Source: Pseudomonadota bacterium (GTDB lineage: Bacteria > Pseudomonadota > Gammaproteobacteria > Pseudomonadales > Azotimanducaceae). Taken from it: 64,000 nt of DNA. The position numbers were made by a program, and so were the translations under genes. Shown piece after piece: positions 39,159-61,583 of the stretch. The DNA lies in assembly GCA_027624035.1 (NCBI GenBank), contig JAQBUI010000015.1, positions 1 through 64,000 of the forward strand. Reading direction: 5' to 3'. Below the pieces are notes generated by a model. It was not told the DNA's origin. It searched no databases and saw only the letters and a list, made by a program, of their open reading frames with translations. Positions within the stretch are counted from its first letter, which is position 1; each line of letters begins with the position of its first letter.

Positions 39159-40085
39159 CTATTCATTGAAATGGCGAAGCAGTGCCAGGAATTCTTCGGG
39201 ATCTTTCAATGGTTCGCCGGGCTCGCCGCTCAGTAGCCTGGTGACCGCAAATCGAGCCGCCGCAAACTTTTGAAACAGAGGCAGGTATTCGACCTCGGCA
39301 TCAGACAGTTCCCGCTCGCTCTGGTAGCCGTCCAGCAGCGCCTGACGTTTGTCCGGCTCGATACGCCCGTCGTCGCCCGTGCACCAGGCGTTGATACAGA
39401 TTGCAACGTCCTGAATCAGGAAGTCGGTGCACGAGTGGTAGAAATCCAGCACGCCGGTGAGTTCATCGCCGGCAAACAGAACATTGTCCTTGAAGAGATC
39501 GCCGTGAATGATTCCTCTTGGCAGCGCGAGTTCCTGGGCCGCCTCATATTCACTGGCGAGTAGTTGCAGGGTAGTTCTGTCTGCGTCCGACAGACTGGTA
39601 TCGTCCGGCAGCCCGGTTGCCAGCGTGTCGGACATCCACTGGTCTGAATATGGGTTATCACGGTGGGCATCCTCCGTCGCGAGCGTGGCGTGCATCGTGC
39701 CGAGGATCTGTCCGACCTGGCGGCAATGTCTGGCCTCGGCGGCGTCAATATGGGTCCCTTCAAGTCTGGGAAACAGCATCGTTGGCTTGCCGCAGAAAAT
39801 AGTAGAGGTCATGCCATCCAGGGTCTGCTTCGGAGCCGAAACGGGTAGCCCGAAGTAAAACAGGTGACGCATGATGCGGCTGAAAAATGGGACTTCGGCG
39901 AACGAGTGATTCTCGATAATCGTCAGCACGAATTCGGCGGGCTCTGAATCCTTTGCCAGGGTCACGAAGTAGTTGGAGTTTTCGATTCCAGCACCGATAG
40001 CCTCAAAGGAGACCAGTGTCCCCAGGCCATACATGGTGAGGTAACGTTCAAGAGCCGACTGCTCAAAGTGGGTAAATACTGCCAT
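39159..40085 (-). CDS. thrB: Homoserine kinase (type II, aminoglycoside phosphotransferase fold)
   Basis: MAVFTHFEQSALERYL, GIENSNYFVTL, GIIHGDLFKDNVLF. Confidence 0.9.
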   Translation of the reverse strand: MAVFTHFEQSALERYLTMYGLGTLVSFEAIGAGIENSNYFVTLAKDSEPAEFVLTIIENHSFAEVPFFSRIMRHLFYFGLPVSAPKQTLDGMTSTIFCGKPTMLFPRLEGTHIDAAEARHCRQVGQILGTMHATLATEDAHRDNPYSDQWMSDTLATGLPDDTSLSDADRTTLQLLASEYEAAQELALPRGIIHGDLFKDNVLFAGDELTGVLDFYHSCTDFLIQDVAICINAWCTGDDGRIEPDKRQALLDGYQSERELSDAEVEYLPLFQKFAAARFAVTRLLSGEPGEPLKDPEEFLALLRHFNE

Positions 40086-40110
40086 AGTGCGTTCAATCTG
40101 TTTCCGGTTA

Positions 40111-40284
40111 AGAGCCCTCAGCGTGCCCGGGTCGGCCACGCCGTTGTCGTGCCGGGAAGTTTTCCTTACGGCACAGCGTGCGGCCAGAACTTCCATGAGA
40201 GCCCTCAGCGTGCCCGGGTCGGCCACGCCGTTGTCGTGCCGGGAAGTTTTCCGGACGGTACAGCGTGCGGCCAGAACTTCCATG
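40111..40284 (-). repeat. Tandem 87-bp duplication of interspersed repeat family B
   Basis: AGAGCCCTCAGCGTGCCCGGGTCGGCCACGCCGTTGTCGTGCCGGGAAGTTTTCC... at 40111-40197 and 40198-40284. Confidence 0.92.
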
Positions 40285-40289
40285 AAAGA

Positions 40290-40604
40290 CTACCATTCCA
40301 CAATAACCCACTTCGGGTAGAGATGCCTGTGGCCCTCTAGACCCTCATAGTGGGGCGAGCCATCGGCGGGTGCCAGGTAGTACGGCCTGCCCTTTTTCGG
40401 TACCACCTTGATCAGCATCAGGATACCGTTACGGCGGTATTCGTAGACGGTTCGATCCTTGCCCTCGATGATTTCAATGTCGTCGGAGGCCGACCTGGCG
40501 TTGCGACTGTCATCTTCATAGCCAGCGCCCAGGCATGACGGAGCGCCCGTGACGCCTGCCGTAATTGCCCCGGCGAGAGTCATTGAAATAAGCGTTCTGT
40601 TCAA
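40290..40604 (-). CDS. DUF2782-like periplasmic protein
   Basis: Signal peptide; EIIEGKDRTVYEYRRNGILMLIKVVPKKGRPYYL; divergent from polA. Confidence 0.85.
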   Translation of the reverse strand: MNRTLISMTLAGAITAGVTGAPSCLGAGYEDDSRNARSASDDIEIIEGKDRTVYEYRRNGILMLIKVVPKKGRPYYLAPADGSPHYEGLEGHRHLYPKWVIVEW

Positions 40605-40653: not shown

Positions 40654-43329
40654 ATGCAAGACCATTACCAACTCGTGCTAATCGACGCGTCATCGTACCT
40701 TTTTCGGGCATTCCATGCACTACCGTCACTGACCACTTCAGGCGGCCAGCCAACAGGTGCCATCAAGGGCGTGATCAGCATGATCAGGAAGTTGATGAGC
40801 GACTTTCCGGACAGCCATATCGCCTGCGTATTCGACGCCAAGGGGAAGTCTTTCCGTAACGATCTGTACCCGGAGTATAAGGCCAACCGGACCGCCATGC
40901 CGGATGAACTAAGACAGCAGATTACGCCGATTCACGAGATCATCCGGCTGATGGGCGTGCCCATCCTGATGGAAGACGGCGTTGAGGCAGACGACGTGAT
41001 CGGTACCCTCGCCAGCCAGGCAATCGGTGAAGGCATGAATGTGCTGATCTCGACCGGCGATAAGGACATGGCCCAACTCGTCAACGCCAACGTCACGCTG
41101 ATCAATACCATGACAGAGAGTGTCATGGACGAGACCGGTGTGGTCGATAAGTTTGGCGTTAAGCCCACCCAGATTGTCGACTACCTGGCGCTAGTGGGCG
41201 ACACCTCCGACAACATCCCGGGTGTACCGAAGTGTGGCCCCAAGACCGCAGTGAGGTGGTTGCTCGAGTATGAATCCCTGGGCGGTGTGATGGAGCACGC
41301 CGATGAGATCAAGGGCAAGGTTGGTGAGAATCTACGAGAATCACTCGATCATCTGCCCATGTCCTATCAGCTAGCCAGTATCCGGATGGATGTGCCCCTC
41401 ACGCATACCCTGTCGGAGCTGACGCTGGGTGCCCCGGACAAGGATGCCCTGCTGGACGTCTTCAAGAATCTTGAATTCAAGACCTGGGTCGATGAGCTGA
41501 GCACCGGGGAGGATTCGACCGTCGAACCCGCGCGGGTGCAAGTGCAGGTTCTGGATTCCCCGGAACTGGTACGGCAGTGGGCGGAAGGCTGCCCGGGGCC
41601 CGCCGCGCTCGCCGTCGCCGTGCACACCGCGGGCAGCGTCTACATCGACGCCAGTCTTGCCGGGCTCTCGCTCTGTTACGAATCGGGTGCTGCGGCCTAT
41701 GTGCCACTTGGCCATGAAGGTTGTGATGCCGCCACCGGCCAGGTGCTTCTGCAGGTGTTGCAGCCAGTGCTGGAGGCGCCGGGGCGGCAGATTGTGGGTC
41801 ACGATCTCAAGTACGCCTTGAATGTACTGGGCGAACGGGGGGTCAATTTCCGGCCAGGCTTTGACACCATGCTGGCCTCCTACGTCCTGAACTCTGTGGC
41901 TTCCCGGCATGGACTGGAAGACCTCGCGTTGAAACACCTTGGCCGCCACGTTCGGACCCTTGAGGACGTGGCTGGCAAGGGCGCCAAACAGACACCGTTT
42001 GATCAATTGTCGGTAGATTCCGCTGCGGGTTTTGCTGCCGAGCAGGTCGCAGCCTTATTCGAACTGCACACTGTCCTTCGGCACAAGCTGGACGAGGTTC
42101 CTTCACTGGCAGTCGTCTACGACGACATCGAGCTTCCTTTGACGGCGATCCTGTCCAGGATGGAGCGTCACGGCGTGCTGCTGGATTCAGAATTGCTGAC
42201 GAATCAGAGTGGCGAGTTGGAATCCCGGCTGGAGGAGCTGACGAGTCAGGCGTATGACCTCGCGGGCGAGACATTCAATCTGGGTTCCACCAAACAGCTA
42301 CAGGAGATCTTTTTCGACAAGCTTGGCCTACCGGTACTGAAAAAGACGCCAAAGGGCGCGCCGTCGACAGCGGAACCGGTTCTGGCTGAACTGGCTCTGG
42401 ACTATCCTCTGCCCCAGGTCATCATGGACTATCGGGGCCTGTCCAAGCTCAAATCCACCTATACCGATCAACTTCCGAAACAGGTGCAGCCCTCGACTGG
42501 CCGGGTTCATACGTCATACCATCAGGCGGTGGCGGCGACCGGTCGCCTGTCCAGCACGGACCCCAATCTGCAGAACATTCCCATCCGGACAGAGGAAGGC
42601 CGTCGTATTCGCAAGGCTTTCATTGCCCCGGAGGGCATGGTGCTGGTGGCGGCAGACTACTCCCAGATCGAGCTGCGGATCATGGCTCATCTTTCCGGAG
42701 ACGATGGTTTGATTGATGCCTTCAACAACAGACTCGACATCCATCAGGCAACCGCGGCTGAAGTATTTGGTCTTCCTCTTGAAGAGGTCAAGGACTATCA
42801 GCGACGAAGTGCCAAGGCCATCAATTTTGGGTTGATCTACGGCATGTCAGCCTTCGGACTGGCACGACAGCTGGGCATCGCCCGCAATGATGCCCAGGCC
42901 TATATCGATCTGTATTTTGACCGTTACCCGGGAGTGCGAGCGTATATGGACAGCGTCCGTACGCTCGCGGCAGAGCAGGGTTATGTGGAGACCATTTTTG
43001 GGCGACGGCTTTATTTGCCGGAGATCAACGCCAAGAACTTTCAACGGCGTCAGGCTGCAGAGCGAACGGCCATCAATGCCCCCATGCAGGGCAGCGCAGC
43101 GGACATCATCAAGCGGGCCATGCTTGCCGTGGACGCCTGGCTTGAGGCTGCCGATGTTGATGCGCGCATGATCATGCAGGTTCACGATGAACTGGTGCTG
43201 GAGGTGGCCGAGGGTCTTGAGACCGAAGTGACGGATGAACTGGTGCGGAGAATGACGTCTGCAGCAGACCTGCGAATTCCCCTCGAAGTAGATACCGGTA
43301 GCGGCAGAGACTGGGATGCCGCTCACTGA
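40654..43329 (+). CDS. polA: DNA polymerase I
   Basis: 5'-3' exonuclease, 3'-5' exo-like and Pol A domains (VAADYSQIELRIMAHLSGD, RRSAKAINFGLIYGMSAFGL, IMQVHDELVLEV). Confidence 0.97.
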   Translation: MQDHYQLVLIDASSYLFRAFHALPSLTTSGGQPTGAIKGVISMIRKLMSDFPDSHIACVFDAKGKSFRNDLYPEYKANRTAMPDELRQQITPIHEIIRLMGVPILMEDGVEADDVIGTLASQAIGEGMNVLISTGDKDMAQLVNANVTLINTMTESVMDETGVVDKFGVKPTQIVDYLALVGDTSDNIPGVPKCGPKTAVRWLLEYESLGGVMEHADEIKGKVGENLRESLDHLPMSYQLASIRMDVPLTHTLSELTLGAPDKDALLDVFKNLEFKTWVDELSTGEDSTVEPARVQVQVLDSPELVRQWAEGCPGPAALAVAVHTAGSVYIDASLAGLSLCYESGAAAYVPLGHEGCDAATGQVLLQVLQPVLEAPGRQIVGHDLKYALNVLGERGVNFRPGFDTMLASYVLNSVASRHGLEDLALKHLGRHVRTLEDVAGKGAKQTPFDQLSVDSAAGFAAEQVAALFELHTVLRHKLDEVPSLAVVYDDIELPLTAILSRMERHGVLLDSELLTNQSGELESRLEELTSQAYDLAGETFNLGSTKQLQEIFFDKLGLPVLKKTPKGAPSTAEPVLAELALDYPLPQVIMDYRGLSKLKSTYTDQLPKQVQPSTGRVHTSYHQAVAATGRLSSTDPNLQNIPIRTEEGRRIRKAFIAPEGMVLVAADYSQIELRIMAHLSGDDGLIDAFNNRLDIHQATAAEVFGLPLEEVKDYQRRSAKAINFGLIYGMSAFGLARQLGIARNDAQAYIDLYFDRYPGVRAYMDSVRTLAAEQGYVETIFGRRLYLPEINAKNFQRRQAAERTAINAPMQGSAADIIKRAMLAVDAWLEAADVDARMIMQVHDELVLEVAEGLETEVTDELVRRMTSAADLRIPLEVDTGSGRDWDAAH

Positions 43330-43373
43330 CTCGCGCCGCGTTGTGGAATTCCAAAAAAAAGTTCGGCGACCTG

Positions 43374-43400
43374 GAACTTTGTTCCGCTGGCCTAGTCTTA
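43374..43400 (+). promoter_or_regulatory. Putative RpoE/AlgU-type promoter GAACTT-N16-TCTTA
   Basis: GAACTT 43374-43379; TCTTA 43396-43400. Confidence 0.6.
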
Positions 43401-43406
43401 AATATC

Positions 43407-43527
43407 GTACGTAGTATGACTAAGTAGTGTTTAGCAGCAACTTCGGTGAGTTTCCCCCCAAATGAACCGAAGCCCCTGGGTCCTGATCATATCATCCCCA
43501 AGAGTGGTCAGGGCCCAATCTTTTTTT
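43407..43527 (+). ncRNA. Candidate trans-acting sRNA at the polA-engB (Spot42/ErsA) locus
   Basis: sigmaE-like promoter; CTTCGGT/ACCGAAG hairpin with C-rich loop TTTCCCCCC; strong Rho-independent terminator; conserved sRNA locus. Confidence 0.65.
43478..43527 (+). terminator. Rho-independent terminator
   Basis: GGGTCCTGATCA ... TGGTCAGGGCCC (12-bp stem with two G-U pairs) followed by AATCTTTTTTT. Confidence 0.85.
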
Positions 43528-43579
43528 GGTGCAGGGTGCGAAATTTACACGCTCTTTTGGTTCATCCTTTCCGCGTTCC

Positions 43580-44290
43580 TCACGGTCCATGTTTGACAGG
43601 GCCAGCCTCGTGTTGTCCAACTGGTTCTTCTGATTCCATTTGGTCCTGGAACCCCTGATCGAGTGCCGGAAGCCGGGCCAGTAGCCGTGCGGTGAGGACC
43701 TCCCGTGCCTCTTCGATGCCAATATGAATGAGCGCCGAAAACAGCTGGGACGTGACGCCAGCGGGCAACTGTCGACGAAGCTTGAGCAGGACTGACTGAC
43801 GCGCTCCGTTTGACAACTTGTCGGCCTTGGTAAGCAGAATGTGCAGTGGCATTTGACGGTCTGTACACCAGCGGATCATCATTTCGTCAAAGGCCTTGAG
43901 GGGGTGGCGGATGTCTACCAGCAGGACGAGCCCCACCAGCGAATCCCTGCCTCGCAGGTAACTGTCCAGATTGCGATGCCAGTCGTCCTTTACCTTGTCC
44001 GGAACCCGGGCGAAACCATAGCCGGGCAGATCAACGAGGCGAGCATCCGCTGCGAGCGCGAAGAAATTGATCAGCTGCGTACGCCCGGGGGTCTTACTGG
44101 TTCTGGCAAGCTTTCTCTGGCTGGTAATCTCGTTGATGGCGCTGGACTTCCCTGCGTTGGAGCGACCACAGAATGCGATTTCGGCGCCAGTGTCCGGCGG
44201 ACAGTCGCTGAGCCTTGCCGCACTCTTGATGAAGTGTGTCTGCTGGAAATTCACGGATACCTCAAACGGGCTTGGGCAGGGCCCGGTCAT
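43580..44290 (-). CDS. engB: Ribosome biogenesis GTP-binding protein YihA/EngB
   Basis: [42 protein letters not shown]. Confidence 0.95.
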
Positions 44291-44340
44291 TTAATATATA
44301 ATCCTGCGACGATTTTAGCACCGTAGTAAGAGTCGGACCT

Positions 44341-44961
44341 ATGAAGTCACCTATAAAACCACTATCAGGATGGTTGATGATCGCTGCCTTGCTCGCTGCC
44401 GGGCAAACGGTTGCCGAAGGCAACGCGGAACGGGGTAAATCCCTCAATGGAACCTGTGTCGCATGTCACGGCGAAGTGGGTAATAGCCTCGCGGGCTCAT
44501 TCCCCAACATTGCCGGTCAGAATGAACTGTACCTTCTAAAGCAACTTCGAGACATTCAAACCGGTGCCCGCGAGGCGCCGTTGATGACGGGAATGCTGGA
44601 TAGTCTGGATGATCAGGACCTTGAAGACCTGGCTGCTTTCTATGCCGGTCAGCAGCCCAGCATGGGTGCGGCCGACCCTGCCCTGGCGGACCTGGGAGAA
44701 CAGATTTACCGTGCCGGGATTTCCAGGAAGGGTGTAGCGGCATGTACCTCGTGTCATTCCCCGACCGGCCAGGGGAATGCGCTGGCAACTGTGCCTTTGT
44801 TGTCGGGCCAGTGGCCGGAATATACGGTGGCCCAGCTCAAGGCGTTTCGTTCCGGAGCGCGCATGAATGATGGTGATGCCAGGATGATGAGACTGAGCGC
44901 GATGGACCTCTCGGACCGTGAGATCGATGCGCTGGCCACCTACGTCTACGGACTTCATTGA
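44341..44961 (+). CDS. Diheme cytochrome c4
   Basis: Signal peptide; CVACH and CTSCH; LAAFYAGQQPSMG. Confidence 0.92.
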   Translation: MKSPIKPLSGWLMIAALLAAGQTVAEGNAERGKSLNGTCVACHGEVGNSLAGSFPNIAGQNELYLLKQLRDIQTGAREAPLMTGMLDSLDDQDLEDLAAFYAGQQPSMGAADPALADLGEQIYRAGISRKGVAACTSCHSPTGQGNALATVPLLSGQWPEYTVAQLKAFRSGARMNDGDARMMRLSAMDLSDREIDALATYVYGLH

Positions 44962-60655: not shown

Positions 60656-60839
60656 CGCAGGCGGTTGATGTCCAGGTGGACGGTGATTTGACCATTTCTT
60701 TCTCAAGAATGTGCACTACGTCGCAGTTTTCTGGCAAGAAACCCGTAATTTACTCCTCATGGCGTCCCTTCGGCCCCGAAACGGGGACGAGAGCGCCGAC
60801 ACTACGTGACACGAAGTGGAAACATGGAGAGAGATGACA

Positions 60840-61583
60840 ATGAAAGTTCTGGTTGTAGATGACGAAAAACTTGCTCGTGAACGTCTCCGACGGATGGTAT
60901 CGACCCTGGATGGCTATGAAGTTGTGGCGGAAGCGGGGACTGGACAGGAAGCTGTCCGCAGGGCCGTGGAACTCGATCCGGACATTGTGCTTCTGGATAT
61001 CCGGATGCCGGGCAGCGATGGCCTCGCGGCAGCCGGAGAACTCACGGCGCTGTCTTCACCCCCTGCCGTGATATTTTGTACGGCCTTCGCGGACCATGCC
61101 GTCGACGCGTTTGATGTGCATGCGTCAGGCTACCTGCTCAAGCCCATTCGCCGGGATGCGCTCCGGGATGCGCTTTCAAAGGTCGGACAGGTCAATTCAG
61201 TTCAGCGGCGAGCCATAACCGGCGATGACGCCAATGAAGCGCGCCACAATGCCCGGACTCACATCAGCGCCAGGACCAGGCGTGGGATTGAACTGATTCC
61301 CATTTCCGAAGTGCGCTTCTTTCAGGCAGATCACAAGTACGTGACGGTGCGTCACGAAGGTGGTGAAGTCCTGATTGACGATACCCTGCGGGAACTGGAA
61401 GACGAATTTGGCGAGAAGCTGGTTCGGATTCATCGAAACGCCCTCGTGATGACAGACCATCTCGATGGACTTGAGCGCGACCCGTCCGGGCATTATCGAG
61501 TCCGAATGCGGGGAGTCGCGGAGCGCCTGGATGTGAGCCGCAGACACGTTTCAGGTCTCCGTCGCCTGGTTCAATCGCTCTGA
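60840..61583 (+). CDS. algR: AlgR-like LytTR response regulator
   Basis: MKVLVVDDEKLARERLRRMV; IVLLDIRMPGSDG; LytTR domain VRFFQADHKYVTVRHEGGEVLIDDTLRELEDEF. Confidence 0.93.
   Translation: MKVLVVDDEKLARERLRRMVSTLDGYEVVAEAGTGQEAVRRAVELDPDIVLLDIRMPGSDGLAAAGELTALSSPPAVIFCTAFADHAVDAFDVHASGYLLKPIRRDALRDALSKVGQVNSVQRRAITGDDANEARHNARTHISARTRRGIELIPISEVRFFQADHKYVTVRHEGGEVLIDDTLRELEDEFGEKLVRIHRNALVMTDHLDGLERDPSGHYRVRMRGVAERLDVSRRHVSGLRRLVQSL

Follow-up and report, generated by a model that had tools for sequence, protein, structure and literature searches.

The gap between the genes for DNA polymerase I (polA) and the GTPase EngB/YihA (engB) in the DNA analysed here, a stretch of 64,000 nucleotides which we call the window, holds a conserved sRNA gene, which has a promoter of the stress type and encodes a C-rich loop. 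Its promoter motif, structure and terminator are conserved among relatives, it forms a unit independent of its neighbouring genes, and its similarity to the Pseudomonas RNA ErsA is found in both directions of model comparison. We consider it quite probable that the gene encodes a stand-alone, trans-acting sRNA of about 120 nt, of a divergent ErsA type, which is transcribed by RpoE/AlgU and pairs with G-rich translation starts. The source genome comprises 4.8 Mb in 171 contigs and is 92% complete; its family is represented by at least 37 genera among the genomes examined. The identical string GGAACTTATATTACCACGTGTTGTCTCA was seen near five of its contig ends and probably belongs to a mobile element or another kind of repeat at which the assembly broke. 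The two flanking genes converge on the sRNA element, and the locus is composed as follows (positions in the window; R1 is the covariance model introduced below):

40654-43329, plus strand: polA, DNA polymerase I, flanking gene (Pfam DNA_pol_A and 5_3_exonuc)
43373-43400, plus strand: sigmaE/AlgU-type promoter, GGAACTTT-N14-GTCTTA, a motif conserved upstream of RNA-model matches
43374-43379 and 43396-43400, plus strand: -35 element GAACTT and -10 element TCTTA, separated by a spacer of 16 nt
43407-43527, plus strand: predicted sRNA of about 121 nt, based on its fold and on matches to R1 and the ErsA model
43426-43437, plus strand: AGTGTTTAGCAG, single-stranded and resembling the AGUGUUGGCAG stretch of ErsA in the ErsA model alignment
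43441-43472, plus strand: stem-loop 1, CUUCGGU/ACCGAAG with an 18-nt loop, proposed pairing site (fold, conservation)
43477-43527, plus strand: intrinsic terminator, stem 43477-43490/43504-43517, T7 at 43521-43527
43580-44290, minus strand: engB/yihA, GTPase, flanking gene (Pfam MMR_HSR1)

An earlier note on this DNA had described GAACTT-N16-TCTTA, a CTTCGGT/ACCGAAG hairpin, a terminator and a T7 run, and all of these parts were recovered in place. From the position of the promoter, transcription is predicted to start at about 43406-43408. The 7-bp arms of stem-loop 1 (CTTCGGT, 43441-43447; ACCGAAG, 43466-43472) enclose the 18-nt loop GAGTTTCCCCCCAAATGA, which holds TTTCCCCCCAAA and includes UUUCCCCCCAAA with six consecutive C at 43454-43459. 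A second C-run of the sRNA, CCCC at 43496-43499, lies in the loop of the terminator, which went unreported in a simple terminator scan admitting loops of 3-8 nt only. The window also encodes algZ/algR-like genes, as had been noted (His_kinase PF06580, 59552-60655; Response_reg plus LytTR, 60834-61583), and their link to the sRNA is only one of co-occurrence within the window.

The element folds more stably than expected from shuffled sequences, with -40.4 kcal/mol (z -4.47) for 43403-43528 and -38.9 kcal/mol (z -4.91) for 43407-43527, and none of 200 shuffles was as stable as the native fold. In an alignment of 38 copies, the terminator stem shows compensatory changes on both sides at 11 of its 12 pairs, and the overall covariation of 0.393, compared to 0.217 (sd 0.010) in shuffles, was abolished when the pairing partners were slid against each other. 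For stem 1, 94% of the alignment cells are paired and there is hardly any variation, so that its sequence itself seems to be constrained; in the loop, the central C columns show little or no variation. The conservation of hairpin and terminator in relatives with polA-engB synteny, on which the earlier note had made its proposal depend, was thus borne out, the hairpin being kept and the terminator stem covarying. The AGTGTT...GCAG (AGUGUU) box was dropped as a conserved element, the full box being present in just 5 of 56 copies from relatives.

The same 38 copies were used to build the covariance model R1, which includes no promoter; the training copies had been selected with a promoter requirement. 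On the window, R1 matches 43423-43521 with 79.4 bits. Among genomes of the family, the element was detected in 13 of 151 by DNA search and in 24 of 81 by R1, flanked by polA and engB in nearly every locus that could be checked; orthologs of engB are present in 187 of 201 family genomes. In same-family genera with a distant EngB, the RNA is often absent or strongly diverged but promoter-bearing, which suggests that loss and rapid change are common. A scan of 85,462 species genomes with the exact pattern yielded 23 stretches, all of them from MAGs of uncultured gammaproteobacteria or proteobacteria, including one with the label OM182 clade; on this basis, we tentatively place the source organism in an OM182/Pseudohongiella-like marine group. 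A second copy in the source genome was considered and rejected, as the sole other R1 match there (contig C131, 16.3 bits) adjoins a tRNA-like stretch. Two other genomes carry, beside a histidine-kinase gene and far from polA, an additional, weaker RNA that resembles the polA-engB element in build, with a hairpin, a C-rich terminator loop and a T-run (1501-1606 in both locus L016 and locus L200), which is possibly a paralog; it scores 29 bits with R1 and, on L016, 33 bits with the ErsA model RF01719. Similar weak R1 matches were seen in four genomes; none of this type was found in the genome of the window, where the C131 match has nothing in common with these RNAs.

The promoter string by itself was rejected as evidence, being at chance level genome-wide with 27 matches versus 29 for a reversed-pattern control; the motif is significant by virtue of its conservation at the polA-engB position. 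The pattern GAACT[TA]-N14-17-TCNNA was found within 170 nt upstream in 41 of the 50 best R1 matches at polA-engB loci, compared to an expectation of 0.2 from Markov shuffles, but the selection of the training copies means that such counts in near relatives are not independent. Outside the training family, the motif accompanies 15 of 22 R1 matches in the order. Independently of R1, it occurs on the sense strand in 40 of the 64 polA-downstream gaps and on the antisense strand in none of them. Motif and positional conservation thus support the assignment of the promoter to the sigmaE/AlgU class made in the earlier note. The genome encodes Hfq as well as RpoE (305 bits), the latter followed by rseA/rseB-like genes. 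A promoter at its own rpoE was dropped as a line of support, as none of the GAACTT type was found near this gene, upstream of which lies a repeat block; this counts against the proposed sRNA model. The short repeat '..ARCAVRKTSRHDNGVADPGTLRAL..', which occurs twice at the 5' end of a 374-aa ORF at 39159-40283 (window 40100-40340), is also present upstream of rpoE and is an interspersed repeat of this genome.

With regard to known RNAs, ErsA (RF01719) was the sole Rfam family matching 42500-44500 at E up to 10. Its model aligns end to end with 43414-43530 at 18.4 bits, far below the Rfam gathering cut-off of 50, and no match at gathering level was found anywhere in the window. Intermediate loci in the order score 30-46 bits with RF01719 and three genuine ErsA loci 134-139 bits; R1 in turn recovers the same three ErsA loci with 25-31 bits and E-values of 3e-7 to 2e-5, which are rough because of a short calibration. 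Based on the weak full-length alignment, the intermediates and the recovery of true ErsA loci by R1, the predicted RNA is, as far as sequence models tell, a divergent relative of ErsA and, by Rfam score, not a member of that family. It shares with ErsA (Pseudomon-1) of Pseudomonas the position between polA and engB, the orientation in the direction of polA, the GAACTT...TC promoter class, here a sigma22/AlgU-type promoter as judged from motif and conservation, and the succession of a hairpin and a terminator with a C-rich loop. The sequence of stem 1 and its loop differ from those of ErsA, and most relatives of the window RNA lack the AGUGUU box. Targets that ErsA regulates in an Hfq-dependent manner include algC, oprD and anr. 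In another family of the order, we observed at least two tandem ErsA-like units away from engB and adjoining an msrA-like gene (locus L015); no such RNA is present between polA and engB in that genome, which indicates that the ErsA-like gene has moved.

The element follows polA immediately in the same orientation and is closed by a strong terminator, as would be expected if it were the polA terminator and 3' UTR only, without a transcript of its own. In relatives, however, copies that each comprise a promoter, a hairpin and a terminator are arranged head to tail: four in two of the loci, three in two and two in five others. One relative carries the element on the opposite strand of the polA-engB gap (L010), and in another it is away from polA (L015). 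Together with the conserved promoter motif and the invariant hairpin and C-run, for which a bare terminator has no need, this makes the 3' UTR explanation quite unlikely. The tandem copies and the inverted copy argue for a transcription unit of its own and, at the level of sequence, support the element as a predicted independent, terminated sRNA gene. A gene for a small protein is extremely improbable, even though two ORFs overlap the element (44 aa from an ATG at 43462 and 70 aa from a GTG at 43446) and the spf gene of E. coli encodes SpfP: both frames read through the terminator, the ATG is absent in relatives, loop indels are not multiples of three, and the pattern of conservation is that of base pairing, not of codons. 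These ORFs were rejected, in agreement with the earlier view that none is convincing here.

That note had also placed the RNA with both ErsA and Spot 42 and had suggested a scan with the two Rfam models. The kinship with ErsA holds on the two-way similarity, though at 18.4 bits the match stays below the cut-off, whereas the Spot 42 half did not hold up: Spot_42 (RF00021) did not match 42500-44500 (E up to 10) or any of 39 related loci (E up to 1). A Spot 42 ortholog that has kept the polA-engB site would account for the same gene gap in E. coli and for the weak 18.6-bit match of R1 to the 3' part only of E. coli spf, but this identity was rejected for lack of a Spot_42 model match and we regard it as very improbable. 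To our knowledge, the promoter of Spot 42 is not of the sigmaE class. Rather unlikely, too, is that the RNA acts as a decoy for Hfq or another RNA-binding protein instead of pairing with mRNA. Stem 1 is kept in both sequence and structure, as a protein site would be, and Pseudomonas has such an Hfq decoy in CrcZ (PMC8575079); on the other hand, the window RNA has one short C-run, unlike the repeated A-rich site of CrcZ, and the nearest relatives with a tested function act by pairing.

For a trans-acting, ErsA-type sRNA, we propose the following mechanism. The envelope-stress sigma factor RpoE/AlgU would transcribe the sRNA from its own promoter in the polA-engB gap, and the transcript would stop at its own terminator. 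A rigid hairpin with almost no sequence variation would expose a pure-C patch in its loop, alongside the second C-run in the terminator loop. The UUUCCCCCCAAA loop and the CCCC of the terminator loop would pair with G-rich stretches around translation starts, probably assisted by Hfq, and such starts would be repressed during envelope stress. We infer that the RNA is transcribed under sigmaE in this organism, forms C:G pairs and acts as a repressor, the C-rich loop being the likely active site. The proposed pairing is drawn from analogy with sX13, ar14 and ErsA: the C-rich loops of sX13 repress mRNAs with G-rich motifs (PMC3771888), rhizobial ar14 RNAs act through anti-Shine-Dalgarno loops (PMC7143759), and ErsA, under AlgU control, acts on oprD and anr together with Hfq (PMC7264166, PMC8575079). 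The predicted site of ErsA for anr is a U-rich single-stranded region and not the C-rich loop (PMC8575079), which counts against pairing by the C-rich loop. A crude search for targets with TTTGGGGG shortly before an ATG gave 10 sites versus 4 in the control, with no coherent gene set among the 10 and one plausible gene for a predicted secreted protein of 385 aa; this prediction was set aside as too weak to serve as evidence of a regulon.

In whole-genome searches of 232 species across the gammaproteobacterial class, R1 matched 23 additional genomes (E up to 0.001). In 19 of the 23, the match adjoins polA, engB or both (binomial probability about 5e-48 for a neighbourhood of 6 kb in 3 Mb), and the remaining four matches rank among the weakest. 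The promoter motif lies at or just before the match in 12 of the 19 loci. One locus is sX13 by Rfam (L242; 117 bits, 30.9 bits with R1) and two beside polA/engB score as anti-hemB (58 bits for L247, 52 bits for L248), the Burkholderia RNA 7 (RF02837). Many others stay just under the Rfam cut-offs, several matching the ErsA, sX13, anti-hemB and ar14 models together, the ar14 matches being weak. The sX13, anti-hemB and ar14 models found nothing in 42500-44500 itself (E up to 10). Like the window RNA, sX13 (RF02232) of Xanthomonadaceae adjoins polA and has C-rich loops, but three instead of two, and is Hfq-independent (PMC3771888). The alphaproteobacterial ar14/NfeR1 and cuckoo-type RNAs are hairpins with unpaired anti-Shine-Dalgarno C-rich loops and occur in multiple copies, the NfeR1 promoter being of the sigma70 type, unlike that of the window RNA (PMC7143759). 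In one distant gammaproteobacterium (L257), four consecutive R1 matches lie in the polA-engB gap, a tandem growth of the locus outside the family of the window as well. We lean slightly towards the view that a single ancient family of C-rich-loop sRNAs, linked to polA/engB and mostly controlled by envelope-stress sigma factors, comprises ErsA, sX13, anti-hemB and many unnamed RNAs, as well as the window RNA, as its branches; the family would have been duplicated in tandem, inverted and moved repeatedly, and its members filed as if they were unrelated RNAs of single genera. C-rich sRNAs may instead have converged at one permissive site; one old family is the simpler reading. A literature search retrieved no paper joining ErsA with sX13 or anti-hemB; a report on the cuckoo family, possibly relevant, lay outside this search.

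The authors of the sX13 study raised the question of whether sRNAs acting like sX13 are also found at the polA locus in other bacteria (PMC3771888). The finding that R1, applied blindly to whole genomes, places 19 of 23 matches beside polA/engB answers the first half of this question. The window RNA extends the ErsA type of stress RNA from Pseudomonas to uncultured marine gammaproteobacteria, below the detection level of Rfam. The recurrent tandem copies represent natural dose variants. If these RNAs form one family, results on ErsA and sX13 can be combined, and the link to envelope stress becomes testable in many species.
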